In this document: in pieces, positions 3 through 14,110 of the stretch | Position numbering within the stretch: position 1 is the stretch's first letter | Layout: every line of letters begins with the position of its first letter | Source: a bacterium | Lineage (GTDB): Bacteria > ARS69 | Reading direction: 5' to 3' | Length of the DNA stretch: 15,600 nt | NCBI GenBank assembly: GCA_025774805.1 | Contig: JALGZR010000090.1 | Location: 1 to 15,600 of the forward strand | Made by a program: the position numbers and the translations under genes | Notes under the pieces: generated by a model | Databases searched by the model: none | Told to the model about the DNA's origin: nothing | Seen by the model: only the letters and a program-made list of their open reading frames with translations

Positions 3-1157
3 GAGATTCCCGCCTACCTCATGCCCGGCCAGGCGATCGGCTCCATTGCCGTGTCCCTCGGGTACGGTCGGACACACGCCGGTCGCGTGGCCGAGCGCGA
101 CAGCGACGGGAAGGGGGGCGGCTTCGACGTCTATCCCCTGAGAACCACGGATGCGATGGACGTCCTCCCCTACGTGGAGCTCGCCCGGGGGCGGGGGCGT
201 CACGAGCTCGCCGTCACTCAGGACCATCACGCGATCCACAACGCGGCCCAAGGGCGGGGCCAGGACCAACGCCTCTCGGCGATCTACCGGGAAGGAGACC
301 TGGAGGAGTACCGCGAGCATCCCGACTTCGCCGAGCGCCGCTCGCACCATCCGCCTCTCGTCTCGCTCTGGCGGGAGCGGGACTGGAAGGAGGCGCGACA
401 CCGCTGGGCGATGACGATCGACCTCGCGGCGTGCACCGGATGCAGCGCGTGCGTCGTCGCCTGCCAGGCCGAGAACAACAGCCCCGTCGTGGGCAAGGCC
501 GAGGTGATCCTCGGGCGCGAGATGCAATGGATGCGGATCGATCGTTACTTCCGCGGAGATCTCGAGAGGCCGCGGGTCGGCCATCAGCCCATCACGTGCC
601 ATCACTGCGAGAACGCGCCCTGCGAGCAGGTCTGCCCGGTCGCGGCGACCGTCCACAGCGAGGAAGGCCTCAACGACATGGTCTACAACCGCTGCGTGGG
701 GACGCGGTACTGCTTGAACAACTGTCCCTACAAGGTCCGGCGGTTCAACTACTTCAACAACCAGACCGGGCTTCCCCGGCTGCTCGAGATGAAGTTCAAC
801 CCCGACGTCACGGTGCGGGCGCGCGGGGTCATGGAGAAGTGCACGTACTGCGTCCAGCGGATCAAGGCGGCGACGATCCCCGCAAAGAACGAGGGGCGGC
901 CGATCGAGGACGGGACGATCGTTCCCGCCTGCGCCCAGACGTGCCCGGCGGACGCGATCGTTTTCGGTGATCTCGACGACCCGAACAGCCGGGTGAGCCG
1001 GCTGCAGGAGCACCCGCGCGCCTATTCGCTCCTGGCCGAGCTGAACGTGAAGCCCCGGACGCGCTTCCTCGCGAAGCTCCGGAACCCCCACCCCGGCTCG
1101 TCCGGCGACTCGGGAACGGGGCACGGGACCGGGGGAGGCGAACACCACCATGGATGA
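3..1157 (+). CDS. actB: ActB, C-terminal part: molybdopterin-domain remnant plus iron-sulfur domain of alternative complex III (5' truncated by window)
   Basis: ActB is the peripheral iron-sulfur subunit of ACIII and carries electrons from quinol oxidation towards the heme subunits. The frame is open from position 3 with no start in the window, so this is a partial gene; family members are about 1000 residues and about 384 are visible. The first 50 residues resemble the end of the cofactor-free molybdopterin-oxidoreductase-like domain (PGQAIGSIAVSLGYGR, FDVYPLR). Four cysteine groups follow: CTGCSACVVAC (nt 432-464), CHHCENAPCEQVC (597-635), CVGTRYCLNNC (693-725), and a split CTYC (840-851) with CAQTC (930-944). 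These total 15 cysteines, as expected for three 4Fe-4S clusters and one 3Fe-4S cluster, the known ACIII arrangement. The C-terminus is a Gly/Ser/His tail ending GEHHHG. actC follows after 30 bp. Identity is very secure; the missing N-terminus is due only to the window edge. Confidence 0.96.
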   Translation, partial: EIPAYLMPGQAIGSIAVSLGYGRTHAGRVAERDSDGKGGGFDVYPLRTTDAMDVLPYVELARGRGRHELAVTQDHHAIHNAAQGRGQDQRLSAIYREGDLEEYREHPDFAERRSHHPPLVSLWRERDWKEARHRWAMTIDLAACTGCSACVVACQAENNSPVVGKAEVILGREMQWMRIDRYFRGDLERPRVGHQPITCHHCENAPCEQVCPVAATVHSEEGLNDMVYNRCVGTRYCLNNCPYKVRRFNYFNNQTGLPRLLEMKFNPDVTVRARGVMEKCTYCVQRIKAATIPAKNEGRPIEDGTIVPACAQTCPADAIVFGDLDDPNSRVSRLQEHPRAYSLLAELNVKPRTRFLAKLRNPHPGSSGDSGTGHGTGGGEHHHG

Positions 1158-1187: not shown

Positions 1188-2654
1188 ATGACGACGGCGA
1201 CCCTACCGAACGCCCTCGACAACACCGCGGATGATCCGACGCGGCCCGCTCCCCTGATTCTGGGGGACAACGACTTCGCGTCGGTGACCGACAAGGTCTG
1301 CCGGGCCACGGAGCTGGACCGGACGCCGAGGGCCTGGTGGGTTCTCTTCGGGGTCGCCGGCGCGTTCGCGCTGCTCCTCTTCGCGATGATCGGCTATCTG
1401 TTCCACACCGGAATCGGGATCTGGGGCGTGAACAACCCCGTCGGGTGGGGCTTCGCGATCGTGAACTTCGTCTTCTGGGTCGGCATCGGTCACGCGGGAA
1501 CGCTCATCTCGGCGATTCTCTACCTCTTCCGGCAGAGCTGGCGAACGGGCATCAACCGGTTCGCCGAGGCGATGACGATCTTCGCGGTCATCTGCGCTCT
1601 CGTCTTCCCGGGAATCCACGTCGGGCGGGTCTGGTTCGCGTTCTGGCTCTTCCCGATCCCCGACCAGCAGCTCTGGATGTGGCCCAATTTCCGCAGTCCC
1701 CTCCTTTGGGACGTGTTCGCCGTCGGCACCTACTTCGTCGTTTCGCTGACGTTCTGGTACATGGGGTTGATTCCCGACATCGCCTCCCTGCGCGACCGAG
1801 CGAAGACGCGCGCGCGCGAGATCGTGTACGGGATCTTCGCTCTCGGCTGGCGGGCCTCGAACCGCCACTGGTCGCGCTATGAGCGCGCGTATCTCATTCT
1901 GGCCGCGCTGGCGACCCCCCTCGTGCTCTCCGTGCACTCCGTGGTGTCGTTCGACTTCGCGGTCTCCCAGCTGCCGGGGTGGCACACCTCGATCTTCCCG
2001 CCCTACTTCGTGGCCGGGGCCATCTTCTCCGGCTTCGCGATGGTGGTCTTCCTCGCGGCGATCGCCCGCCGGATCTACCGGCTCGAGGAGATCATTACGC
2101 TGCGGCACCTGGAGAACATGTGCAAGATCATCCTCGCGACCGGATCGATGGTGGGCTACGCGTACGCGGTGGAGTTCTTCATCGCCTGGTACGGCGCGAA
2201 TCCATACGAGGGCTTCGCCTTCCTGAACCGTGCGTTCGGTCCCTACTGGTGGGCCTACTGGATCATGGTCACCTGCAACGTGATCTCGCCCCAGCTCTTC
2301 TGGTTCAAGCGCATCCGGACGTCGGTTCCCGCGATTATGGTCATCGCCTTCGTCGTGAACGTCGGGATGTGGTTCGAGCGCTTCGTGATCACCGTGACGT
2401 CCCTGTCCGCCGACTTCCTCCCCTCGAGCTGGGACATGTACTGGCCCACCTGGGTCGACGTCGCGACGCTTCTCGGCAGCTTCGGGCTGTTCTTCTCCCT
2501 CTTCCTTCTCTTCATTCGCTGGCTGCCGATGGTGGCGATCGCCGAGGTCAAGGTCATCATGCACAACGCCCGGTCGCACGGCGAGACGCGCCGGCACGAA
2601 GGAGGCGCCGACGCGGCCGCGCCGCATCCGGCTCCCGAGGGGGTGAGGCCATGA
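1188..2654 (+). CDS. actC: ActC, NrfD/PsrC-like quinol-oxidising membrane subunit of alternative complex III
   Basis: This integral membrane subunit of ACIII carries the proposed quinol site. The 488-residue length and hydrophobic profile fit about ten transmembrane helices of the NrfD/PsrC family. Recognisable family stretches are [20 protein letters not shown] (about residues 99-118), [19 protein letters not shown] (140-158) and [14 protein letters not shown] (170-183). H144 and D175 lie in the two segments where structural work on this family places the conserved His and Asp near the quinol site; the exact equivalence is my inference. The N-terminus (to about residue 45) and the last 30 residues are charged and cytoplasmic-looking. 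The ATG at 1188 has only a weak GGGAACGG-like ribosome site, but no better start fits. The stop overlaps the actD start as ATGA, suggesting translational coupling. Confidence 0.96.
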
Positions 2655-3217
2655 GCGGACGGGCGGAAGGAGGAGCACCGATTCCGGCGAAGCGGCTGGC
2701 CGGGTACCTGATCGAGTTCGAGACCCCCGAGCAGATCCTGCGGGCGGCCTCCCGGGTCCGGGAGAAGGGCTACCGGCGGTGGGACACGCACACGCCGTTC
2801 CCGGTGCACGGAATGGACGTCGCGATGGGGCTCCGGAGCACCGTGCTTCCCTGGCTCGTGATGGGAGCGGGCGCCGCCGGATGTCTGACCGGGCTCGGGC
2901 TGCAGTGGTGGGCCAACGCCCACAACTACCCGATCCTGATCAGCGGCAAGCCTTTCTGGAGCATACCCGCGAATATCCCGGTGGCCTTCGAGCTCACCAT
3001 CCTGTTCGCCGCGATCACGGCGTTCGCCGCGATGATCGTCTTCAACGGGCTCCCCCGCTATCACCATCCCGTGTTCTCCAGTGACCGCTTTCGCCGGGTG
3101 ACGTCGGATCGCTTCTTCATCAGCATCGAGTCGCAGGACCCCCTGTTCGACGAGGAGCGGACCGGGGAGTTCGCGAGGTCCCTGGGAGGGACCTGCGTCG
3201 AGAGGCTGGAGGTCTGA
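2651..3217 (+). CDS. actD: ActD, DUF3341 two-helix membrane subunit of alternative complex III
   Basis: ActD is a small ACIII subunit that packs against ActC and ActE in known structures; it has no redox centre. The 188-residue protein starts at ATG 2651, which overlaps the actC stop (ATGA). An in-frame open reading extends far upstream but is only a shadow of actC, so the overlapping ATG is the sensible start. A soluble N-terminal domain opens with [20 protein letters not shown] (about 17-36). It is followed by [13 protein letters not shown] (44-56), typical of DUF3341, then two hydrophobic helices at about 64-87 and 109-131, and a cytoplasmic C-terminal tail. The [18 protein letters not shown] segment joining the helices is also typical. 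No cysteines or heme motifs occur. The stop is followed 4 bp later by actE. Confidence 0.94.
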
Positions 3218-3221
3218 GACG

Positions 3222-3872
3222 ATGCCGAGGTGGATCGCCCCCGTGGTCCTGACGTTCGTGGTGATCGCGCTGATCCCGGCCGCGCTCATCACCCGCGCCC
3301 GGTACACGCGCTCGTCCACGCCGCGGATCAACCTCGTCCCCGACATGGACTATCAGCTGAAGTACCTCCCCCAGACCGCGAACGCGCTCTTCGCCGACGG
3401 GCGGGCCATGCGTCCCGCGCCCGAGGGGACCGTCGCGCGCGGTCGCCTCGCGGAGGACGAACGATTCCATCGCGGCCGAAGCGGGGAGGACTGGGTCGGG
3501 GAGATCCCCGTTCCCGTGACCGGGGCCGTTCTCCGGCGGGGCCGGGAGCGGTACGGGATCTTCTGCTCCGTCTGCCACGGCCTCTCGGGCTACGGCGACG
3601 GCATGGTCCACGCGCGGGCCCTGGAGCTCGCCGAGAAGGGGCTGGCCAACTGGGTGCCCCCCACGTCCCTTCACGACGATCTCGTGCGGGATCGGCCGGA
3701 CGGACACCTGTTCAACACGATCACCTACGGGATCCGCAACATGCCGGCGTACGGCCCCCAGATCCCCCCCGAGGATCGGTGGGCGATCGTCGCGTACCTG
3801 CGGGCGCTCCAGCGCAGCCAGAAGGCGACCCTGGACGACGTGCCCGCCGAGAAACGGTCCGCGCTCCGATGA
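3222..3872 (+). CDS. actE: ActE, membrane-anchored monoheme cytochrome c subunit of alternative complex III
   Basis: ActE supplies a periplasmic c-type heme in ACIII and is a likely exit point for electrons towards the oxidase. The 216-residue protein begins with a hydrophobic segment (about residues 6-23) that lacks a lipobox cysteine, so it is probably a single-helix anchor rather than a lipoprotein signal. The heme site is FCSVCHG, with the CxxCH at residues 115-119. The distal ligand is probably the Met in IRNMPAYGPQIP, followed by the usual C-terminal helix DRWAIVAYLRALQRSQ. A conserved upstream segment, MDYQLKYLPQTANALFADGR (42-61), is characteristic of ActE proteins, which supports this over a generic cytochrome c. 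A GGAGG at 3208-3212 precedes the ATG. The gene sits between actD and actF, the standard order. Confidence 0.94.
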   Translation: MPRWIAPVVLTFVVIALIPAALITRARYTRSSTPRINLVPDMDYQLKYLPQTANALFADGRAMRPAPEGTVARGRLAEDERFHRGRSGEDWVGEIPVPVTGAVLRRGRERYGIFCSVCHGLSGYGDGMVHARALELAEKGLANWVPPTSLHDDLVRDRPDGHLFNTITYGIRNMPAYGPQIPPEDRWAIVAYLRALQRSQKATLDDVPAEKRSALR

Positions 3873-3889
3873 GCCGCGCCGGTGAGACG

Positions 3890-3895
3890 AGGAGG
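3890..3895 (+). promoter_or_regulatory. Ribosome binding site deciding the GTG start of actF
   Basis: AGGAGG lies five bases before GTG 3901. No in-frame ATG in the first part of the gene competes, and the protein from this GTG begins with a polar tail before the first helix, as expected. Confidence 0.75.
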
Positions 3896-3900
3896 CGAAC

Positions 3901-5115
3901 GTGACCGCCCACGACCACCAGGTGAGCCTGCCGGTCCACGAGGTCCGGCTGGGCGGAGCCGCGGGGAGGCTGACCGGGATCGCCGGCGCCATCGGCGTCC
4001 TCGGGCTCCTCGCGAGCGCGCTGCTCGGTTTCGCACGGGCGGACTCCGAGCGCTTCTACCTCTCCTATCTCGTGAGCTTCTCTTACTTCCTCAGCCTCAC
4101 GCTGGGCGCGCTGTTCTTCGTCCTCCTGCAGCACCTTACCCAGTCGGGGTGGAGCGTCTCGGTACGGCGGATCGCGGAGGGGTTCGCGGCCAACGCGTCG
4201 ATGCTGGCCGTTCTCTTCGTGCCTCTCCTCTTCGGGCTCGGATCCCTGTACGAGTGGACGCAACCCGAGCACGTCGCCGGCGATCATCTGTTGCAGGCGA
4301 AATCCGGGTACCTCAACCCCGTCTTCTTCTTCGTCCGTCTCGTGGTCTACTTCGGCGCGTGGATCCTGATGTCCCGGTTCTTCTTCCGGCAGTCGGTCCT
4401 CCAGGACCGGACGGGAGACCCGGAGATCACGACACGGATGCGGAAGCGGTCGGCGCCGGCGGTCTTCGTGTTCGCCCTGACCCTGACCTTCTGCGCGTTC
4501 GACCTCCTCATGTCGCTCGAGCCGCACTGGTTCAGCACGATCTTCGGCGTCTACTTCTTCTCCGGCAGCGTGCTCGGCTTCTTCGCGGTCCTCCCCGTGT
4601 CGGCGTTCTTCCTGCAGCGATCCGGCCGACTCCGCGGGCTCGTCACGACCGAGCACTTCCACGACCTGGGCAAGCTCGTCTTCGCGTTTGCCGTGTTCTG
4701 GGCCTACATCGCGTTCTCCCAGTACATGCTCTACTGGTACGCGAACATTCCGGAGGAGACCGAGTGGTTCCTCCGCCGCCAGACGGGGGAGTGGACGGCG
4801 GTGAGCTGGCTGCTGCTGGTCGGGCACTTCATCGTGCCCTTCCTGGCTCTCATCTCCCGCGTGCCGAAGCGGCGGCGCGGGGTGCTGGTGACGGTCGCGA
4901 TCTGGATCCTGTTCATGCACTGGGTCGATCTCTACTACGTCGTGATGCCCCACGCGAGCGAGGGAAGGGTGCCGCTCGGTCTCTTGGACCTCACGACGTT
5001 CCTGGGGATCGGCGGAATCTGGGTGGCGGCGTTCGCCCACCGCCTGCGAGACCGCGCGCTGGTTCCGACGAAGGATCCCCGGCTCGCGGACTCGCTGACG
5101 TTCGAGAACTTCTGA
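3901..5115 (+). CDS. actF: ActF, second NrfD-like membrane subunit of alternative complex III
   Basis: ActF is the paralogue of ActC in ACIII, a roughly ten-helix membrane protein proposed to take part in proton translocation. The 404-residue product starts at a GTG supported by a good AGGAGG. Family landmarks are AKSGYLNPVFFFVR (about 133-146), WILMSRFFFRQSVLQD (154-169), TFCAFDLLMSLEPHWFSTI (196-214), HDLGKLVFAFAVFWAYIAF (254-272) and SQYMLYWYANIPEETEWF (273-290). LFMHWVDLYYVVMP follows near the C-terminus. These match the ActF group rather than ActC. There is no cofactor motif, as expected. The stop codon lies inside the ribosome binding site of the next small gene, so translation is probably coupled. 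It closes the ACIII part of the operon. Confidence 0.95.
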   Translation: MTAHDHQVSLPVHEVRLGGAAGRLTGIAGAIGVLGLLASALLGFARADSERFYLSYLVSFSYFLSLTLGALFFVLLQHLTQSGWSVSVRRIAEGFAANASMLAVLFVPLLFGLGSLYEWTQPEHVAGDHLLQAKSGYLNPVFFFVRLVVYFGAWILMSRFFFRQSVLQDRTGDPEITTRMRKRSAPAVFVFALTLTFCAFDLLMSLEPHWFSTIFGVYFFSGSVLGFFAVLPVSAFFLQRSGRLRGLVTTEHFHDLGKLVFAFAVFWAYIAFSQYMLYWYANIPEETEWFLRRQTGEWTAVSWLLLVGHFIVPFLALISRVPKRRRGVLVTVAIWILFMHWVDLYYVVMPHASEGRVPLGLLDLTTFLGIGGIWVAAFAHRLRDRALVPTKDPRLADSLTFENF

Positions 5116-5120
5116 GGTGA
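5114..5120 (+). promoter_or_regulatory. Ribosome binding site overlapping the actF stop, selecting ATG 5126
   Basis: GAGGTGA is a strong Shine-Dalgarno match. It overlaps the actF TGA (5113-5115) and leaves five bases before ATG 5126. This argues against the in-frame GTG at 5117, which lies inside the site itself. Confidence 0.7.
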
Positions 5121-5125
5121 AGGGT

Positions 5126-5443
5126 ATGCAGACGGACAACGACGATCCTCGCTCGTGGCCCACGGTGGTGGTCGGCGGTATCGGCGTCCTCCTCTTCGTG
5201 GTGATTCTCCTGGGCCTCGAGGCCCTGTACGGCTCCGCCCGGGAGGAGGAGGAGCTCCGAAAGGTCGTGGATCGCGTTTCGCCGCGGCTGGAGCTCCTGC
5301 GGGAGCGGCAGCGTCTTCAGATGAGCGAGTACCGGTGGGTCGACCGGGATTCCGGAACGGTGGCGATTCCGATCGAGCGGGCGATGGAGCTGATCGCGAG
5401 AGAGAGCGGCTCTTCCGCCGGTGCTCCGGCCGGATCACGGTGA
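5126..5443 (+). CDS. Small single-helix membrane protein of the ACIII/caa3 cluster, function unknown
   Basis: This 105-residue protein has no enzymatic motif that I recognise. It has a short polar N-terminus, one transmembrane helix at about residues 12-31 (TVVVGGIGVLLFVVILLGLE), then a charged amphipathic stretch (about 38-66, rich in E, R and L) likely to face the periplasm. It ends with the segment YRWVDRDSGTVAIPIERAME (69-88) and a Ser/Gly/Ala tail. From memory, small proteins with a similar Y-x-W-x-D...G-x-x-x-IPI-x-x-AM segment recur beside ACIII and caa3 genes in several phyla, so an accessory or assembly subunit is plausible; that role is inference. ATG 5126 is preferred over GTG 5117 because of the ribosome site. 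The sco gene follows after 8 bp. Confidence 0.8.
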   Translation: MQTDNDDPRSWPTVVVGGIGVLLFVVILLGLEALYGSAREEEELRKVVDRVSPRLELLRERQRLQMSEYRWVDRDSGTVAIPIERAMELIARESGSSAGAPAGSR

Positions 5444-5451
5444 GGATGGGG

Positions 5452-6315
5452 ATGCGTACGATGGCCCGAAGGAGTCCGCCCGTCGACGGTCGCGCCCTCG
5501 CGACGTCCCTCGCGCTGCTGGTGCTCGTTCCGATCTCGGGCCGCGCCCAGCTCACCGAGGAGCAGCCCGCGGCGCTGGAGGGGGTCGGAATCACGGAGCG
5601 CCTGGATTCCCCGCTTCCCCTGGACGCCGTGTTCCGGGACGAGGACGGGGCCGAGGTCGCGCTCGGTGAGTTCTTCGACGAGGAGAGACCGGTGATCCTG
5701 AGCCTCGTCTACTTCGACTGCCCGATGCTCTGCATCCTGCTGCTCGACGGCATCGTGGCCACGATCTCCGAGCTCGACTGGACCCCGGGCGTGGAGTACG
5801 AGATGGTGACGGTGAGCTTCGACGCTCGAGACACCCCCGATGCGGCGAAGGCGGAGCGGGACCACTACGTGCAGAGGCTGGGGATGCCCGAGGCGGCGGC
5901 CGGGTGGCACTTTCTCACCGGCACGGAGGAGAGCATCGAGCGGCTCACGGAGGCGGTCGGTTTCCGCTACCGCTACGACCCGGAGCGCAACGAGTTCATG
6001 CACACGGCGGCCCTCTACGTGACCACCGATCAGGGGCGCCTCTCCCGCTACCTGTACGGCGTCGCCTTCGAGCCGGAGACGCTGCGGCTCGCCCTCGTGG
6101 AGGCCTCGGCGGGTCGGATCGGATCGCCCGTCGACCAGTTCCTCCTGTTCTGCTACGCCTACGATCACACGGAGGGCCGGTACGGCCCCGCGGCCGTCAA
6201 GATCATGCGTCTGGGGGGTGCCGCCGCGGTCGTCGCCCTCGTTGTCCTGTTCGCGTGGCTCGGGAGACGGGGCGCGCGTCGCAAGCAGGGCCTCTCGATG
6301 GGAGCGCGCTCGTGA
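5452..6315 (+). CDS. sco1: SCO1/SenC/PrrC-family copper chaperone for the CuA centre, with C-terminal membrane helix
   Basis: SCO proteins are thioredoxin-fold periplasmic chaperones that deliver copper to, or reduce, the CuA site of CoxB. The product (287 residues from ATG 5452; ATG 5461 is an alternative) has a signal-peptide-like N-terminus (about 15-32, ending SGRAQ). The copper motif is YFDCPMLC with Cys90 and Cys94, and the third ligand is probably His184 in EFMHTAALYV. VTVSFDARDTP and a C-terminal PVDQFLLFCYAYD...GRYG segment follow. A helix at about 254-270 and a basic tail give a second membrane anchor, a form I associate with SCO proteins in ACIII/caa3 clusters; ordinary SCO proteins end after the thioredoxin fold. 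A further cysteine, C234, lies just before this anchor. The stop overlaps the coxB GTG, placing the chaperone directly before its client. Confidence 0.92.
   Translation: MRTMARRSPPVDGRALATSLALLVLVPISGRAQLTEEQPAALEGVGITERLDSPLPLDAVFRDEDGAEVALGEFFDEERPVILSLVYFDCPMLCILLLDGIVATISELDWTPGVEYEMVTVSFDARDTPDAAKAERDHYVQRLGMPEAAAGWHFLTGTEESIERLTEAVGFRYRYDPERNEFMHTAALYVTTDQGRLSRYLYGVAFEPETLRLALVEASAGRIGSPVDQFLLFCYAYDHTEGRYGPAAVKIMRLGGAAAVVALVVLFAWLGRRGARRKQGLSMGARS
6301..6304 (+). promoter_or_regulatory. Ribosome binding site for the GTG start of coxB
   Basis: GGAG lies seven bases before GTG 6312, inside the last codons of the SCO gene. The GTGA overlap with the SCO stop plus this site decides the coxB start over the long open frame upstream. 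Confidence 0.6.
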
Positions 6316-7304
6316 ACCCGCTTCACCAGGGAGCCCCGTACCGGGCGGCGGCCCTCCTCCTGCGGGGAGACTCCGAGTCCTTCTGGCTGCCCGAGGCGAA
6401 GTCCACGGTCGCCGGGCAGGTGGACACGCTCTTCTACTGGATTCTCGGGATCTCCGTCTTCTTCTTCCTCCTCATCGTTGGGCTGGTGGTGTTCTTCCTG
6501 GTGAAGTACCGCCGCCGCGGCGAGGAGATCGCGGTGCAGCCGAGCGCCCACCACAGCACCGCTCTCGAGTTGGCCTGGAGCGGGATCCCCCTGGTCATCG
6601 TTCTGGCGATCTTCGTGGGAGGGTTCAAGGGCTTCCTGAACCTCCGCACGGCGCCCGACGACGCCTACGAGGTCCAGGTCACCGCCCAGCGCTGGAACTG
6701 GAGCTTCACCTACCCGAACGGGCACGTCGATCCGGAGCTCCACGTGCCCGCGGGGGTTCCGATCCGGCTCGTCATGTCCTCGCTCGACGTGATTCACAGC
6801 TTCTACGTTCCCGACTACCGCGTGAAGCAGGACCTGGTCCCGGGCCGGTACACGACGGCGTGGTTCGAGGCGAAAGAGCCGGGGGAGAGCCGGATCTACT
6901 GCGCCGAGTACTGCGGGACGAGCCACTCGGAGATGCTCTCCCGGGTGGTCGTCCACGCGCCGGCGGAGTTCGAGAGGTGGCTGCAGGAGGCGGCCGATTG
7001 GATGGTCGGGTTGAGCCCGGCGGACGCGGGGGCGGAGCTCTACCGGAGGAAGGGCTGCGTCCAGTGCCATTCGGTGGACGGGAGCGCGGGAATCGGACCG
7101 ACGTTGAAGAGCTCCTTCGGTAGTCCGCGGAAGTTCACCGACGGAAGCGACGGGAGGGTGGACGAGAACTACATTCGCCAGTCCCTGCTCCAGCCGGCGG
7201 CGGCGGTCGTGGTCGGCTTCGATCCGGTGATGCCCACGTTCCAGGGGCGTCTCGACGACGAGGAGATCGCCGCCCTCATCGCGTACATCAAGAGTCTGAA
7301 CTGA
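6312..7304 (+). CDS. coxB: Cytochrome c oxidase subunit II (CuA) with fused cytochrome c domain, caa3 type
   Basis: Subunit II accepts electrons at the binuclear CuA centre and passes them to heme a in CoxA. The 330-residue protein has two N-terminal helices (about 41-64 and 89-108). A cupredoxin domain follows with [10 protein letters not shown] (126-135) and H162 in IHSFYVPD. The CuA loop [12 protein letters not shown] gives ligands C197, E199 (backbone), C201, H205 and M208. After about residue 235 a cytochrome c domain follows with CVQCH (249-253) and probable axial Met307 in DPVMPTFQG. This makes it a caa3 oxidase, whose attached heme receives electrons from ACIII or other cytochromes. 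No lipobox or clear signal peptide is visible before the first helix. The start is GTG 6312, overlapping the sco stop; the much longer upstream open frame is a shadow. Confidence 0.96.
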
Positions 7305-7330: not shown

Positions 7331-9004
7331 ATGACGACGGCAGACCTGGCCGATAGGCCCGAACTGCACCGGGAGAGCTCCGAAGGTGAGAACTACCTGA
7401 CCGCCTCTCGGGGAATCCGCTCCTGGCTGCTCAGCCTCGATCACAAGCGGATCGGGGTGATGTATCTCGTGGCCACTCTCGCGGCCTTCCTGATCGGCGG
7501 CATCTTCGCCCTGATCCTCCGGACGGAGCACCTGACCGGGAAGGCCACGATCATGGACGCCGACTCCTACAACCAGGCGTTCACCCTGCACGGCGCGGTG
7601 ATGGTGTTCCTCTTCGTGATCCCCGCGATTCCCGCCGCGTTCGGCAACTTCGTCCTCCCCATCATGCTCGGCGCGAAGGACGTAGCGTTTCCCCGGCTGA
7701 ACCTGACGAGCTTCTATTTCTGGGTCGTGGGCGCGCTTCTCCTGGTCTCCGCCATCGCGCTCAAGGCCCCGGACACGGGCTGGACCTTCTACACGCCCTA
7801 CTCAACGGACACCTCCGCCAGCGTGATCCCCGCGTTTCTCGGCGTGTTCGTGCTCGGTTTCAGCTCGATTCTCACCGGAGTCAACTTCATCGTCACGATC
7901 CACAAGCTCCGTCCGCCGGGCATGGGATGGTTCCGGATGCCCCTGTTCCTCTGGGGCCTCTACGCCACCGCCGTCATCCAGGTCCTCGCCACCCCGGTCC
8001 TGGCGGTCACGCTCCTTCTCCTGATCGCGGAGAGGACGATGGGCCTGGGGATCTTCGATCCGGCGCTCGGGGGGGATCCGGTGCTCTTCCAGCACTTCTT
8101 CTGGTTCTACTCCCACCCCGCCGTCTACATCATGATCCTCCCCGCCATGGGGATCGTGAGCGAGCTGGTCACCACCTACAGTCACAAGCACATCTTCAGC
8201 TACCGGTTCATCGCGTACAGCTCGATCGCCATCGCGATCTTCGGGTTTTTGGTCTGGGGACATCACATGTTCACGAGCGGGCAGTCCGAGCTTCTGAGCA
8301 TGATCTTCTCCGCGATCACGTTCAGCGTGGCGATCCCGTCGGCGGTCAAGGTGTTCAACTGGATCACCACGATGTACAAGGGCTCCGTCGACCTGAAGAC
8401 CCCCATGTGGTACGCGCTGATCTTCATCTGGGTGTTCACGATCGGCGGTCTCACCGGTGTCTTCCTCGGAGCGCTCTCCACCGACGTGCACCTTCACGAC
8501 ACCTACTTCGTCGTGGCCCATTTCCACTACACGATGTTCGGGGGGACGGTGATGGGCTTGCTCGGCGGCCTCCATCACTGGTGGCCCAAGATGTTCGGCC
8601 GCATGTACGACGAGCGGTGGGCCCGCGTCGCGACCCTCATGGTGTTCGTGGGCTTCAACCTGACGTTCTTCACCCAGTTCCTCATGGGATCCCGGGGAAT
8701 GCCGCGTCGGTACTTCATGTACCCCGAGGAGTTCACCGGACTGCACGTGGCCTCCACCGTGGGCTCGTACCTGACGGCGGCGGGCTTCTTCCTGACGGCG
8801 GCCTACCTGATCCACTCCCTCTTCCGCGGAGCGAAGGCGGTCTCCAATCCCTGGGGCGGGGCCACCCTCGAGTGGGTCTGCTCCTCGCCGCCCCCGCCGC
8901 ACAACTTCGACACTCCCCCGACCGTGGGGGATCCCTACGACTTCGATCGCGTGACCTGGGATCCGGACGCCCGCGTCTGGAGGAACGAGGCGGTCCGCCC
9001 ATGA
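7331..9004 (+). CDS. coxA: Cytochrome c oxidase subunit I, A2-type heme-copper oxidase
   Basis: This catalytic subunit reduces O2 to water at heme a3-CuB and pumps protons. At 557 residues it has the normal length and about 12 helices. Ligands are H87 (heme a, TLHGAVMVF), H262 with cross-linked Y266, H311 and H312 (CuB), H397 (heme a3) and H399 (heme a, in [11 protein letters not shown]). K340 in [10 protein letters not shown] is the K-channel lysine, and D117 in [11 protein letters not shown] matches the D-channel entrance. The helix VI motif is YSHPAVY (260-266): the A1-type glutamate is absent and Tyr-Ser precedes the His, which defines the A2 subfamily typical of caa3 enzymes. A polar Pro-rich C-terminal tail follows [17 protein letters not shown] lies five bases before ATG 7331. 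The stop overlaps an ATG at 9001. Confidence 0.97.
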
Positions 9005-9057
9005 ACCGCGTACGACATCTCACCGCGGACTCCGCACCGATCGAGGAGAATCGATGA
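9001..9057 (+). CDS. Possible 18-codon ORF linking coxA and coxC
   Basis: The 49-bp gap between coxA and coxC is bridged by an ORF encoding [18 protein letters not shown]. Its ATG (9001) overlaps the coxA stop as ATGA, and its own stop (9055-9057) overlaps the coxC ATG (9054) as ATGA. It has no ribosome site of its own beyond coupling to coxA, while its last codons contain the GAGGAGA that serves coxC. It could be a coupling cistron that carries ribosomes from coxA to coxC, or it may be chance. No family is recognisable. Confidence 0.3.
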
Positions 9058-9968
9058 GCGCGGAAGCGACGGCCTCCTCCGTGGGCGCGACGGACCACCT
9101 GCGGCACCACTTCGACAGCCCGCGCCAGCAGTTCGAGTCGGGCAAGCTCGGCATGTGGCTGTTCCTCGCGACCGAGCTGCTGATGTTCGGGGGTCTGTTC
9201 TGCGCCTACGCGGTCTACCGGGCGAGCCACCCCGAGGTCTTCGTGTACGCCCACCGCTACCTCGACGCGAACCTGGGCGGCATCAACACCCTGATCCTCA
9301 TCTGCTCCAGCCTCACGATGGCGTGGGCGGTGCGGGCGGCGCAGCTCGGGCAGCGCGATCTGCAGATCCTCATGCTGACGCTGACGATCGCGGGCGGCAT
9401 CGGGTTCATGGGTATCAAGGCGGTGGAGTACGAGCACAAGTGGAAGCACGGCCTGATGTGGGGGACGCGTTACGACCCGACGCTCCACGAGCACGCGGGG
9501 GCCGGGCACGCGGAGACCGCGACGGGCGCCCCGGCGGCGGGTGATCACGTCGGGGTGCCGGCGACCGGTGCGGCGGGCTCCGGAGAGGAACACGCTCCTC
9601 CGGCGGCGCCGAAGCGGGCCCCCCTGCCGCGCACCTGGGACGCCCCGACGGCCGACAGGTCCTTCATCGGCCCCGCGGCGATGCCGCCTCCCGGTCTGGC
9701 CCCTCCTCCGGCGGCACGGTCGCTGCACGCCCCGCCGGAGTCCCCCGCGAACGTCCACCTCTTCTTCGGGATCTACTTCGCGATGACCGGGCTGCACGCG
9801 GTCCACGTCCTGGTCGGAATCTTTCTCATCTACTGGCTTCTGCTCGGAGCGCTCCGGGGGAAGTACGGCCCTTCCTACTTCGTCCCCGTGGACAACGTGG
9901 GGCTCTACTGGCACGTCGTCGACATGATCTGGATCTTCCTCTTCCCCCTTCTCTACCTGATCCACTAG
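9054..9968 (+). CDS. coxC: Cytochrome c oxidase subunit III with long low-complexity loop
   Basis: Subunit III stabilises the oxidase core and proton uptake; it has no redox centre. Five helices of the subunit are recognisable: about 33-54, 76-96 and 103-124, then after a long loop about 235-262 and 283-302. Landmarks are KLGMWLFLATELLMFGGLF (31-49), VEYEHKWKHG (124-133), FFGIYFAMTGLHAVHVLVG (237-255) and NVGLYWHVVDMIWIFLFPLL (281-300). Between the third and fourth, about residues 141-232, lies a roughly 90-residue Ala/Pro/Gly/His-rich segment, which raises the length to 304 residues against about 200 for typical five-helix forms. AGGAGA four bases before ATG 9054 supports the start. The loop is in frame and bounded by normal family sequence, so it is not a frameshift. 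Its role is unknown. Confidence 0.93.
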   Translation: MSAEATASSVGATDHLRHHFDSPRQQFESGKLGMWLFLATELLMFGGLFCAYAVYRASHPEVFVYAHRYLDANLGGINTLILICSSLTMAWAVRAAQLGQRDLQILMLTLTIAGGIGFMGIKAVEYEHKWKHGLMWGTRYDPTLHEHAGAGHAETATGAPAAGDHVGVPATGAAGSGEEHAPPAAPKRAPLPRTWDAPTADRSFIGPAAMPPPGLAPPPAARSLHAPPESPANVHLFFGIYFAMTGLHAVHVLVGIFLIYWLLLGALRGKYGPSYFVPVDNVGLYWHVVDMIWIFLFPLLYLIH

Positions 9969-9977
9969 GAGGCGCTG

Positions 9978-11024
9978 ATGGCAGGGCGGCATCTCTCCTC
10001 CGCGGGATCGGGAAGCGGAGCCCCCGGCGGGGAGCACGTCCACGCGGTCCCCCTGCCGGTTCTCATCGGGGTGTGGGGAATTCTCGTGATTCTCACGGTG
10101 ATGACCGTCGGGGCCGCGAAGATCGATCTGGGCGGGGCGAACATCGTCGTCGCGCTCCTGATCGCGGTGGTGAAGTCCTCCTTCGTGGCCCTGTACTTCA
10201 TGCACCTGCGCTACGACCGGCCGTTCCACTCCGTCATTCTCGTGTGCGCACTGTCGTTCGTGATGCTGTTCATCAGCTTCACGCTCATCGACACGCGCGA
10301 GTATCGCCCCGAGATGATCGCGGACTACGCTCCGGCGATCGCCGAGGCGCGGGCGACCGCGGCGGGCACGCCGGGCGCCGAGGCCGGCGCCGGGGGAGCC
10401 GTGGCCGGGACCCCGGCGACCGGGGAAGATGTCGCGGCCGCCCCGGCGGCGAGCGCCGACCCGGAGCGGGGGAAGGAGCTCTACGAGAGGACCTGTACGG
10501 CGTGTCACGGTCCGCAGGCGGAGGGGATCCGATCGCTCAACTCCCCCGCCCTGCACCTCCAGGAGGACTGGTACATCGTCGCCCAGCTCGAGAAGTTCCG
10601 GAGCGGTCTCCGGGGCGCGGACGTGAAGGACATTGCCGGCAGGCAGATGGCGGCGATGGCCAAGGCACTCCCGGACGATCAGTCCATGTACGACCTGGCC
10701 GCCTACATCACCGGGCTCGACGGCCCGCCCCCGACTCCCGAGGTCGAGGGCGACCCGGTCCGGGGCGAGGAGCACTACCGGAAGATCTGTGTCGCCTGCC
10801 ACGGGCCCGATGGACGGGGGATGCCGACTCTCAAGTCGCCGGCGCTCGTCGGTCAGAACGACTGGTACGTGGTGGCGCAGCTCAAAAAGTACCGGGCGGG
10901 CCTGCGGGGAACCGACCCGAAGGACATCACCGGAATGCAGATGCAGCCGATGGCGATGACCCTCCCGGATGAATCGGCGATCCGGGACGTGGCCGCCTAC
11001 ATCGCCGGCTTGCCCATCGAGTAG
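9978..11024 (+). CDS. coxD: Cytochrome c oxidase subunit IV (CoxD-like) fused to two tandem cytochrome c4-like domains
   Basis: The first about 115 residues form a prokaryotic small subunit IV with three hydrophobic segments (about 24-45, 55-74 and 84-104). They contain the family motif VVKSSFVALYFMHLRYD (64-80). An Ala/Gly/Pro-rich linker (about 117-160) then leads to two class I cytochrome c domains. The heme sites are CTACH (173-177) and CVACH (271-275). Each has the c4-like pattern DWY-x-VAQL-x-K-x-R-x-GLRG-x-D-x-KDI and a Met-rich segment (GRQMAAM; GMQMQPM) likely to hold the axial Met. The domains match at about 45 of 76 positions in my hand alignment. The fused hemes would sit on the periplasmic side next to CoxB. 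AGGAGG overlaps the coxC TAG, five bases before ATG 9978. This is the last gene of the plus-strand operon. The usual family form is about 110 residues without hemes. Confidence 0.93.
   Translation: MAGRHLSSAGSGSGAPGGEHVHAVPLPVLIGVWGILVILTVMTVGAAKIDLGGANIVVALLIAVVKSSFVALYFMHLRYDRPFHSVILVCALSFVMLFISFTLIDTREYRPEMIADYAPAIAEARATAAGTPGAEAGAGGAVAGTPATGEDVAAAPAASADPERGKELYERTCTACHGPQAEGIRSLNSPALHLQEDWYIVAQLEKFRSGLRGADVKDIAGRQMAAMAKALPDDQSMYDLAAYITGLDGPPPTPEVEGDPVRGEEHYRKICVACHGPDGRGMPTLKSPALVGQNDWYVVAQLKKYRAGLRGTDPKDITGMQMQPMAMTLPDESAIRDVAAYIAGLPIE
10491..10718 (+). repeat. First copy of a tandem heme-domain duplication within the coxD fusion gene
   Basis: Codons 172-247 encode the first cytochrome c domain (CTACH to YITGL). 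The second copy at 10785-11012 aligns without gaps, with about 45 of 76 residues identical by hand count and a period of 98 codons. Confidence 0.85.
10785..11012 (+). repeat. Second copy of the tandem heme-domain duplication
   Basis: Codons 270-345 encode the second domain (CVACH to YIAGL). Shared blocks include WY-x-VAQL, GLRG, KDI and AAYI. The copies have diverged at DNA level, so this is an established duplication and not a slippage artefact. Confidence 0.85.
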
Positions 11025-11078: not shown

Positions 11079-12986
11079 CTACCCGGCCGCCTGCCGGCCG
11101 GGGAACGGCGTCCCGGGGGCCTTCGGCTCCTTCGCCTCCCGATGGCGGGCGAAGGGGTAGACCGCCGACACGAACAGCAGCTCCAGCCCGCAGAAGATCG
11201 CCAGGTTGATCGCGATGTGGCTCGTGTAGCCGTAGGTGTGGAGACCGACGTTCAGGAGATTGACGCCGAACCAGGCCAGAGCAACGATGAGATTGTTGAG
11301 CACGAGCCCGGCGGCGAAGGCGGTGGGCCGGAAGAGCTCCGCGGACCGCCCGTGCAACAGCATGAGCTGCCACAGGACGATGAGCAGCGCACCGTTCTCC
11401 TTCGGATCCCATCCCCAGAACCTCCCCCACGACTGATCCGCCCAGATCCCCCCGAGAATGGTTCCGAAGAGCGTGAAGAAGAGAGCGACGAGCGTGAGGC
11501 CCATCATGTTCCGGTGGATCTCGGCGAGACGCGCTCTCTCGCGGGATCGGAACGCCTGCCAGACCAGATAGACGTGACCGGCCAGACCGGCCACGATCGA
11601 GCAGCCGTACCCGATCGTGATCGTCACCACGTGCGTGGCGAGCCAGAAGTTCGAGTTCAGGACGGCCACGAGCATGCCCAGCGTGTCGCCGTCGGCCGCG
11701 TAGCCGAACCCGAGGAAGTGGAGGACGGCTCCCACGACAGACGCGACGAAGACGCCCATCCCGTCTCGGCGGCCCCACTCGACGATGACCCCCATGAGCA
11801 CCGCGACGAAGCCCACGAAGACGATGGACTCGTACAGTGTGGACACGGGAGGACGACCCATGATCACCATGCGGATCCAGAGCCCCGCGGTGTGGAACGC
11901 CAGTCCGCCGACGAGGGAGATCAGGGCGAGGCGACGGAGGAGCCGGCCCTTCCCCATCCAGCTCACGGCGAGTAACAGGAAGGCCAGGATGTAGAAGGCC
12001 ACGCTCTTGTAGAAGAGGTCGACCCGGTTGTACCAGGACTCCAGTTGCAGGTTCGAGGTCGAGGGCATCGTCGCGGGGTCGGCCTCCAGGACCTTCACCA
12101 TCCTCTCGACGGCGACGGACTCCCCTACCGCGTCCCCCGAGATCCGGGCGGCCAGGAGGGACTCCCAGAGGTCGAGAACCTCTTCTTCCCGGGCGGAGAG
12201 CTCACTCTTCCCCATGAGGAACCACGGTGCCGACCACTCCTCCCCCTCCTCGGCGGGGACGATGCGCATCGCCGTCGCGAAGTGGTCCTGACGGCGGTCG
12301 TTCAGCTGATGGACGAGGGCGTCGAGGGCCCGGTCCGTGTCCGACCACTGCGCCTGGGGACGCTCGGACAGCGGGGCCAGGAGCTGCGTCAGCTCCCGCC
12401 CCTGCCGGGTGATGCGGTAGTAGCTCACGGGCTCCCCCGGATTCACCGTGAGAGTCGACGCGATCTCGGGATCGTCCACCCGGAAGTCGGGAAGGAGACA
12501 GGAGAGCGACCGGGAGAGCTGCCGGTGACGGAGGGTCGCGAGGTAGAGCTCGACGAGCTGTGTCTCCACCAGGGAACGATCCGTGTCTTCCCGCTCGTAG
12601 AGCTCCCGGAGCCAGTCCTCCTTTTTTCCGAGGGCGATGGCCAGCTCGTCGTGCGTGTAGCGACGTCGCTCCCGCTCCGGGAGATCGAGGGCCGCCACCA
12701 TCGCCGGATTCCGGAGGGTGAACACCGGCCGGTCCCCCGCCGCGACCGGATTCACGGTCAGCTCCAGCAGCCAGTCGATGGCCGAGAGATCCGGCAGGGA
12801 CCGCTTCCCGTGCGCGGCCAGAAGGTGCACGCGGGCGAACGTGTCGAGCGGTTTGATGCGCCCCTCGTGCTGGACGGGGAGATCGCCCACGGACGGCTCT
12901 TTCCCGTCCGTAGAGCCCGGCGTCCCGGCGAGGACCCCGGCGGCGAGGAGAAGGAGAACGCGGAGGCAGCGCGCGGTGTCGCTCAT
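11079..12986 (-). CDS. ccsA: CcsA/ResC-type cytochrome c synthase subunit with large N-terminal extracytoplasmic domain
   Basis: CcsA works with ResB (Ccs1) in System II to export heme and attach it to CxxCH apocytochromes. The 635-residue protein starts at ATG 12986, overlapping the resB stop as ATGA; a longer open frame upstream (to 13061) is a resB shadow. Residues about 8-24 form a signal-like segment. A roughly 300-residue soluble domain follows, with VQHEGRIKPLDTFAR (38-52) near its start, a motif I associate with the long CcsA form. The C-terminal half has about eight helices and the WWD heme-handling motif in SWGRFWGWDPKENGALL (519-535). Conserved-looking histidines are H365, H452 and H583. 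STLYESIVFVGF (382-393) is also typical. The protein ends in a short polar tail. It is the last gene of the minus operon and would mature the hemes of ActE, CoxB and CoxD. Confidence 0.94.
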   Translation of the reverse strand: MSDTARCLRVLLLLAAGVLAGTPGSTDGKEPSVGDLPVQHEGRIKPLDTFARVHLLAAHGKRSLPDLSAIDWLLELTVNPVAAGDRPVFTLRNPAMVAALDLPERERRRYTHDELAIALGKKEDWLRELYEREDTDRSLVETQLVELYLATLRHRQLSRSLSCLLPDFRVDDPEIASTLTVNPGEPVSYYRITRQGRELTQLLAPLSERPQAQWSDTDRALDALVHQLNDRRQDHFATAMRIVPAEEGEEWSAPWFLMGKSELSAREEEVLDLWESLLAARISGDAVGESVAVERMVKVLEADPATMPSTSNLQLESWYNRVDLFYKSVAFYILAFLLLAVSWMGKGRLLRRLALISLVGGLAFHTAGLWIRMVIMGRPPVSTLYESIVFVGFVAVLMGVIVEWGRRDGMGVFVASVVGAVLHFLGFGYAADGDTLGMLVAVLNSNFWLATHVVTITIGYGCSIVAGLAGHVYLVWQAFRSRERARLAEIHRNMMGLTLVALFFTLFGTILGGIWADQSWGRFWGWDPKENGALLIVLWQLMLLHGRSAELFRPTAFAAGLVLNNLIVALAWFGVNLLNVGLHTYGYTSHIAINLAIFCGLELLFVSAVYPFARHREAKEPKAPGTPFPGRQAAG

Positions 12987-14110
12987 GATCGCTTCACTCC
13001 CGGGCTCGTCCCGATCAACCCCGGCACCTTGAGCACCAGATGAACGAGTAGACCGATGCACATGATGAGGCTGGCGACGTAGGGAACGGTCCAGCCGACG
13101 TTCTTCACCGCGGCCAAAACCGTGGTCTGGCTCGAACCGTCCTCGATGAACGAGGACTGGAAGAAAGTGTAGCCGCGGTGGCGAAGGGGTTCGTTCATCT
13201 GGATGACCACCCGGCGCTTCGCCCCGTCCTCCACGAGATGGACGACCGACCGGTAGCTTCGGGCCATCCCGGTGCCGGGGTGGAGCTGCTTCTCGAAATC
13301 GATCAGCTCGAGGGCGAACGGAAGGTAGCGGCGCTCTCTCCGGAGGACGAAGGTCCGCTCTCCCGCCGAGGTGGAAAGCGTCGGAACCACCGCCTGGTGC
13401 TCGAAGAGGGCGTGGAGCCCGTCGGCGGCCTCTCCCGCGTCCGTGAGACGGAACACGATGCCCATGCGGTTGCGCTCGTCCTCGGGATCGGTGGGAAGGG
13501 GTTCGAGAGCGAACCTCTCGAGGAAGCCCCGAGACTCCGGGGGAGCGGGCCCCGTCCGTCGCACCGGCAGGCAGTTCTCGTAGGCGGCGACAATCTCGAT
13601 CTCACCGGGGCAGGACTCGTGTCGGAGCCTCGCCCCCTCGCGGAGCCTCCCGTCCCCGAAGGCGGTCACGAGATCGTACCCGTCGGGTTCGGTGTCGATG
13701 ATGGCCAGCTCGCGTTCGTGGTAATCGGAGACGAACGCCGCGCTCTCCCCCTCGGGAATGACGACGCTTCCCTCCGACGCGAACCGGGCGGTGACGAATC
13801 CCCCGACGAGGAGGACGAGCGCTCCGAAGTGCGTGACGGTGATCCCGAGTCGCCGCAGGCTCAGGTTGAAGTCGCGAATGAAGAGAGCGGTCAGGTTCAC
13901 GAAGATGAACAGCATCGTCACCCGACCGCCCGGAAGCGGGATTCCCCACACCGGGATCCACAGGGACGAGAAGTACTTTTTCTGGGCCGCGTAGAGACCC
14001 AGGTCCCGCTGCGCCAGCGTCCCCACCACGACGAGGGCCATGAGCCAGTAGCACCCGTAGACGAACAGGCTGCTGCGGGACAGGAAGCGGGCGATGCGAC
14101 TCAGCGGCAT
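12983..14110 (-). CDS. resB: ResB/Ccs1-family System II cytochrome c biogenesis protein
   Basis: ResB pairs with CcsA in System II heme attachment. The 375-residue protein has three N-terminal helices (about 17-33, 63-79 and 91-107). A periplasmic domain of about 230 residues follows, then a final helix (about 340-360). The strongest family signature is NEPLRHRGYTFFQSSF (306-321), followed by TTVLAAVKNVGW and PYVASLIMCIG. This is the short ResB form rather than the longer Bacillus type. ATG 14110 has GGAGA seven bases upstream on the minus strand. The gap to the upstream lipoprotein gene is 37 bp, and the 3' end overlaps ccsA by ATGA, so ResB and CcsA are probably made in equal amounts. Confidence 0.93.
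   Translation of the reverse strand: MPLSRIARFLSRSSLFVYGCYWLMALVVVGTLAQRDLGLYAAQKKYFSSLWIPVWGIPLPGGRVTMLFIFVNLTALFIRDFNLSLRRLGITVTHFGALVLLVGGFVTARFASEGSVVIPEGESAAFVSDYHERELAIIDTEPDGYDLVTAFGDGRLREGARLRHESCPGEIEIVAAYENCLPVRRTGPAPPESRGFLERFALEPLPTDPEDERNRMGIVFRLTDAGEAADGLHALFEHQAVVPTLSTSAGERTFVLRRERRYLPFALELIDFEKQLHPGTGMARSYRSVVHLVEDGAKRRVVIQMNEPLRHRGYTFFQSSFIEDGSSQTTVLAAVKNVGWTVPYVASLIMCIGLLVHLVLKVPGLIGTSPGVKRS

Follow-up and report, generated by a model that had tools for sequence, protein, structure and literature searches.

A caa3 oxidase subunit IV (CoxD) joined to a diheme cytochrome c4-like module in an ACIII-linked oxidase gene cluster

The 15,600-nucleotide stretch of bacterial DNA analyzed here (the window) carries a gene cluster in the order actB (partial)-actC-actD-actE-actF, sco, coxB, coxA, coxC, and coxD-c4, the last gene encoding a caa3 oxidase subunit IV joined to a diheme cytochrome c4-like module. 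All of the cluster lies on the + strand. The first base of the window is also the first of its contig; actA therefore falls off the contig and is not visible, and actB is represented by its C-terminal part (21..1157), recognized by tblastn to syntenic loci. The actC-F stretch (1188..5115), identified by NrfD and Cytochrome_CBB3 Pfam matches and by synteny, comprises actC (1188-2654), actD (about 2654-3217), the monoheme actE (3222-3872), and actF (3901-5115). In the interval between actF and sco there is a 108-aa open reading frame (ORF; 5117-5443, + strand) with one hydrophobic stretch. The sco gene (5518..6315, start approximate), encoding a CuA assembly factor, was assigned by synteny and tblastn, and from its sequence we take its product to be of the SCO1/SenC type.

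Three oxidase genes follow. Subunit II (coxB, 6294..7304, start codon approximate; TIGR02866, 185 bits; PF00034) has a CuA site and a C-terminal heme c domain, and subunit I (coxA, 7331..9004; TIGR02891, 674 bits) contains the motif YSHPAVY (YSHPxVY), by which we presume it to be A2-type. Subunit III (coxC, 9054..9968; PF00510 and alignment) contains an Ala/Pro-rich loop, about 90 aa long and free of heme. The CuA ligands and C-terminal heme c of CoxB, together with the YSHPxVY motif of CoxA, identify the enzyme as a caa3 oxidase, and the act genes upstream of the oxidase genes identify the cluster as an ACIII-oxidase cluster. Downstream, on the − strand, are a ccsA-like gene (11079-13061; PF01578, TIGR03144 below cut-off, and PF05140 for the ccsA/resB pair) and a resB-like gene (12983-14110; same profile set) of System II cytochrome c maturation, whose products could attach the hemes of the fusion protein.

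The coxD-c4 fusion gene (9978..11024, + strand) encodes 348 aa in a single ORF with an ATG start, AGGAGG at 9967-9972 ahead of the ATG, and no stop inside. Its CoxD (COX4_pro/caa3_sub_IV) domain (10035..10298) matches TIGR02229 over residues 20-105 (67.1 bits against an NCBIfam cut-off of 37.25) and PF03626 (56.2 bits against a Pfam cut-off of 28.9), and hydropathy peaks at residues 26-44, 56-74, and 86-104 correspond to three predicted transmembrane helices. The curated cut-offs passed, the three helices, and the last place in coxBACD mark this part of the protein as CoxD. An Ala/Gly/Pro/Thr-rich linker of about 51 residues (10299..10451; 19 Ala in 53 residues) leads to two cytochrome c domains, each above the Pfam cut-off for Cytochrom_C (PF00034). 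Domain D1 (10452..10721) has its CxxCH at 10494-10508 (residue 173) and a putative axial Met224 at 10647-10649; domain D2 (10743..11021) has its CxxCH at 10788-10802 (residue 271) and a putative axial Met322 at 10941-10943. The ORF, the TIGR02229 match, and the Pfam matches confirm an earlier reading of the DNA made without database searches (the sequence-only reading), in which CoxD, a linker, and two CxxCH sites were placed in one protein. The ungapped likeness of D1 and D2 described in that reading (45 of 76 residues) also held on recomputation, 51 of 87 residues being identical with no gaps and the alignment score being 278 against a shuffle maximum of 46.

Both domains very likely bind His/Met heme c, since every compared domain keeps the CxxCH and a Met 47 residues past its His; this Met (M224 and M322 in the fusion) is invariant in 32 of 32 domains of the c4-like family. 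With one CxxCH domain on CoxB and two on CoxD, three covalent hemes c are encoded on the oxidase, the number that the sequence-only reading had given. A charged RYDR loop sits between helices 2 and 3, from which we infer an N-in/C-out topology of CoxD that would place the diheme module in the periplasm beside CuA, and the linker is expected to be periplasmic and flexible. AlphaFold models were of low confidence (pLDDT 54 for the full fusion protein and 55 for the diheme module), and a Foldseek search with the weak module model gave c4 proteins as top matches at a TM of only about 0.33, to which we attach low weight.

The phylum of the window is sampled by a single family of five genomes, the window's own being G000. 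A second fusion is encoded in another genus of this phylum (G003; L002/L031/L085 = BQJX01000018), with 57% identity, the same gene order and synteny, and a shorter linker. Over the diheme module the two fusions are about 58% identical, and both CxxCH motifs and Met ligands are retained. That another genus has this fusion in the matching position shows that it is not an assembly error, and GC3 remains at 0.80-0.96 all through the linker, with unbroken codon periodicity and thus no sign of a frameshift. An artefact of assembly or frameshift is thereby ruled out, and a stop or frameshift hidden in the linker, which the sequence-only reading had named as a way in which two genes might be mistaken for one, was looked for and not found. 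Two other genomes of the family encode CoxD without the fusion: G004, in the same ACIII-caa3 cluster, and G001, at the end of a contig. In the CoxA tree, G003 and G004 are joined (91/90) and G000 lies outside, which suggests that the fusion was lost in G004 or moved between lineages.

No further CoxD-cytochrome fusion was detected in 783 genomes of eight phyla, several of them represented by few genomes, nor did one emerge when 84,980 species genomes were scanned at close identity with two short peptide patterns. Viral contigs had no match to the fusion, and plasmids had only cytochromes resembling the heme module, none spanning 80% of the query. In about 48 further CoxD frames that were inspected, CxxCH was absent behind CoxD throughout, in agreement with the earlier statement that CoxD is normally heme-free. 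Long frames around CoxD in G095, G093, G087, G210, G062, G099, G188, G249, and others were considered as candidate fusions and rejected, there being no CxxCH after CoxD. COX1-COX4 fusions have been described (PMC4013037), and our literature search found no paper describing a CoxD-cytochrome c fusion. The sequence-only reading had allowed that the architecture might prove widespread or already described; confined to two genera in the genomes searched, it is a narrowly distributed new domain architecture made of known parts.

The family of the heme module is cytochrome c4-like, and in other aa3 operons its members have a gene of their own directly upstream of coxBAC. In the phylum of G032, more than 20 of the 195 genomes encode a protein whose match is limited to the diheme module, the usual frame length being 225-300 aa. 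At the inspected loci having enough flank, at least eight in number, the free homolog is directly upstream of coxB-coxA-coxC, with a CoxB lacking heme c. The same free c4-like gene upstream of coxBAC, again with a heme-free CoxB, is found within the window's family in G002. A c4-like gene beside coxBAC with a heme-less CoxB is in the position expected of a CuA donor. G003, besides its fusion, holds a free diheme protein that is 53% identical to the module, has a hydrophobic signal-like N-terminus, and is encoded away from oxidase genes.

In a single-domain tree, D1 and D2 from the two fusions and from the free protein of G003 form one clade (95/88), nested in the free proteins' second-domain type. 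The AU test rejected a duplication restricted to the fusions, with the four fusion domains as a clade (p-AU 0.003), as well as a duplication in the window alone (p-AU 0.024). Orthodox orthology of D1 and D2 with the corresponding domains of free c4s was not rejected (p-AU 0.17), although we regard D1-D1 orthology with the free c4s as less likely. The sequence-only reading had attributed the similarity of the domains to duplication within the fusion and not to capture of an old c4 protein; the two rejections, together with a free G003 protein having the same two domains, leave that view unsupported and point to capture. Either the module was captured from a free c4-like protein partnering an oxidase, or the two have an immediate common ancestor, and the internal re-duplication appears to be lineage-specific, common to the fused and free forms, and older than their split.

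As in other caa3 subunit IV proteins (TIGR02229/PF03626), the three-helix domain of the window's CoxD is N-terminal and the gene takes the last place in coxBACD, but normal members (about 48 loci) stop soon after the third helix and have no heme, whereas the window's CoxD adds a diheme module. That module shares with diheme cytochrome c4 (for example PDB 6q2u, 1etp, and 8uf3) tandem class I CxxCH domains with a distal Met, and its best PDB sequence match is a cytochrome c4 (4.5e-13). Cytochromes c4 are free in the periplasm or lipid-anchored, whereas the window's module is covalently fused behind a membrane subunit, and it differs further in that D1 and D2 alike fall with the second-domain type of those free c4s that are linked to oxidases (95/88). 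An act cluster followed by oxidase genes is common to the ACIII-caa3 and ACIII-aa3 systems of R. marinus and F. johnsoniae and to the window, where the pair is predicted from the genes; in the former the attached heme domain is on subunit II or ActA, whereas the window has two more on CoxD. The actinobacterial bcc-aa3 supercomplex has a covalently attached diheme QcrC that bridges complexes III and IV, and C. glutamicum apparently has no other cytochrome c (PMC8361435, PMC9145763). The diheme of QcrC belongs to complex III, whereas that of the window is on the oxidase.

The most likely role, which we consider moderately probable judging from domain content and gene context, is that of a c4 donor cytochrome captured onto CoxD and tethered there to carry electrons from ACIII to CoxB/CuA. 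A c4-like diheme protein has been joined to the C-terminus of CoxD, expected to be periplasmic, in an ACIII-linked caa3 oxidase. The arm would be anchored by the three CoxD helices, the flexible linker would let the diheme module collect electrons from ActE/ActA of ACIII, and the module would hand them first to the CoxB heme c and next to CuA while keeping two electrons in reserve, so that a diffusing donor would be turned into a permanently tethered one. Cytochrome c4 Cyc1, encoded next to coxBACD in the rus operon of Acidithiobacillus, donates to the aa3 oxidase, but as a separate protein (PMC10654088), and the bc1-cbb3 supercomplex entries 8smr/8snh of the PDB include cytochrome c4 chains. 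Direct transfer from ACIII to caa3 occurs in R. marinus, from ActE to the heme c domain of subunit IIc, and in F. johnsoniae an extra mobile heme c domain of ActA transfers directly to the oxidase (PMC5928083, PMC8552683). A wire between ACIII and CuA had been suggested in the sequence-only reading, and the domains, the synteny, and the free homologs by coxBAC make such a wire plausible by inference. Counting against a tethered donor, CoxD is unfused in the same cluster of the related G004, and because CoxB already contains a heme c, the oxidase may be fed without help from the CoxD arm.

The main rival to the tethered donor is an electron tap, in which the arm would pass electrons of the oxidase or ACIII to another periplasmic acceptor such as a cbb3 oxidase, a peroxidase, or a nitrogen-oxide reductase. 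There is precedent in the extra C-terminal heme of Neisseria CcoP, which feeds nitrite reductase (PMC8552683), an entry heme is already supplied by CoxB, and G000 has a cbb3-like cluster, for which no free cytochrome c of class I was detected as a supplier. However, no acceptor gene adjoins the fusion, and the free homologs of the module sit in the donor position, beside aa3 oxidases with heme-less CoxB; we judge a tap to be unlikely. It seems less probable again that the two hemes act mainly as an electron buffer, storing electrons for uninterrupted four-electron reduction of O2 with no gain in pathway: the oxidase does gain two extra hemes, and ActE in ACIII has been proposed as a dead-end electron sink (PMC8552683), but such storage is compatible with a tethered donor and hence not exclusive of it. 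The c4 module could also be a dispensable, near-neutral accident, with electrons passing from ActE to the CoxB heme and CuA as in R. marinus. Both G004 and G001 have unfused CoxD, and the CoxA tree, by joining G004 to G003, suggests loss or exchange; yet both CxxCH motifs, the Met ligands, and about 58% module identity have been kept between two genera, which indicates selection for heme binding and makes an accident the most improbable of these explanations.

Related to a tethered donor is the question of a soluble carrier. In G000, a draft genome that is 96% complete with 5% contamination, a scan with a single profile (PF00034) matched only the two domains of CoxD, ActE, CoxB, and, in the cbb3-like cluster, a protein of 202 aa; it detected no free cytochrome c of class I. 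Many more matches were obtained with the same scan in G003 and G004, and in G003 the fusion coexists with several free cytochromes. The G000 result makes it plausible, if weakly so, that the window's organism dispenses with a soluble carrier. ACIII-caa3 pairs lacking such a fusion already bypass soluble carriers (PMC5928083), and the fusion is therefore not needed for dispensing with the carrier and cannot be named as its cause. The suggestion in the sequence-only reading that the fusion could replace a soluble cytochrome c is compatible with the G000 scan but is weakened by the bypass that exists without a fusion and by the free cytochromes kept in G003. It is unlikely that the whole quinol-to-oxygen branch of the window's organism works with no diffusing cytochrome c and that the CoxD-c4 arm, as a movable link, supplies a second oxidase (cbb3) in addition to its own CuA. 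The cbb3-like cluster of G000 (contig C91, L161:4776-8135) consists of an 854-aa CcoN-CcoO-fusion-like frame, a one-heme CcoP-like frame, and then a CcoG-like frame.

The fusion would represent a fourth site of cytochrome c attachment to the III-IV respiratory assembly, after subunit II, ActA, and QcrC, and its relatives suggest where it came from, probably a free c4-like protein that works with a different aa3 oxidase. The occurrence of free, fused, and absent states in one small phylum provides a natural series in which to test the effect of a tethered donor on electron flow.

In the window's family, G004 (L105:461-1606, − strand) and G001 (L083:1074-2267, + strand) encode orphan CoxC proteins whose two halves are separated by a loop into which a monoheme cytochrome c domain has been inserted; in G001 a nosL-like gene is directly upstream. 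The heme-less Ala/Pro-rich loop of the window's CoxC (about 9470-9745 in 9054-9968) is in the same place as the heme domain of G004 and G001, and its flanks match those of the heme domain in both, for example RSFIGPAAMPPPGLA / RSVIPLAAAGPAGLA. The ACIII-caa3 cluster of G004 is without coxC between coxA and coxD (L081:9600-9740), its CoxC copies being elsewhere. G002 encodes a CoxC-like protein with an inserted heme c domain (L084:9298-10398), followed by a polytopic membrane protein, and no other oxidase subunit gene was seen in the 18 kb stretch around it. Long heme-less CoxC loops are also found in planctomycete loci.
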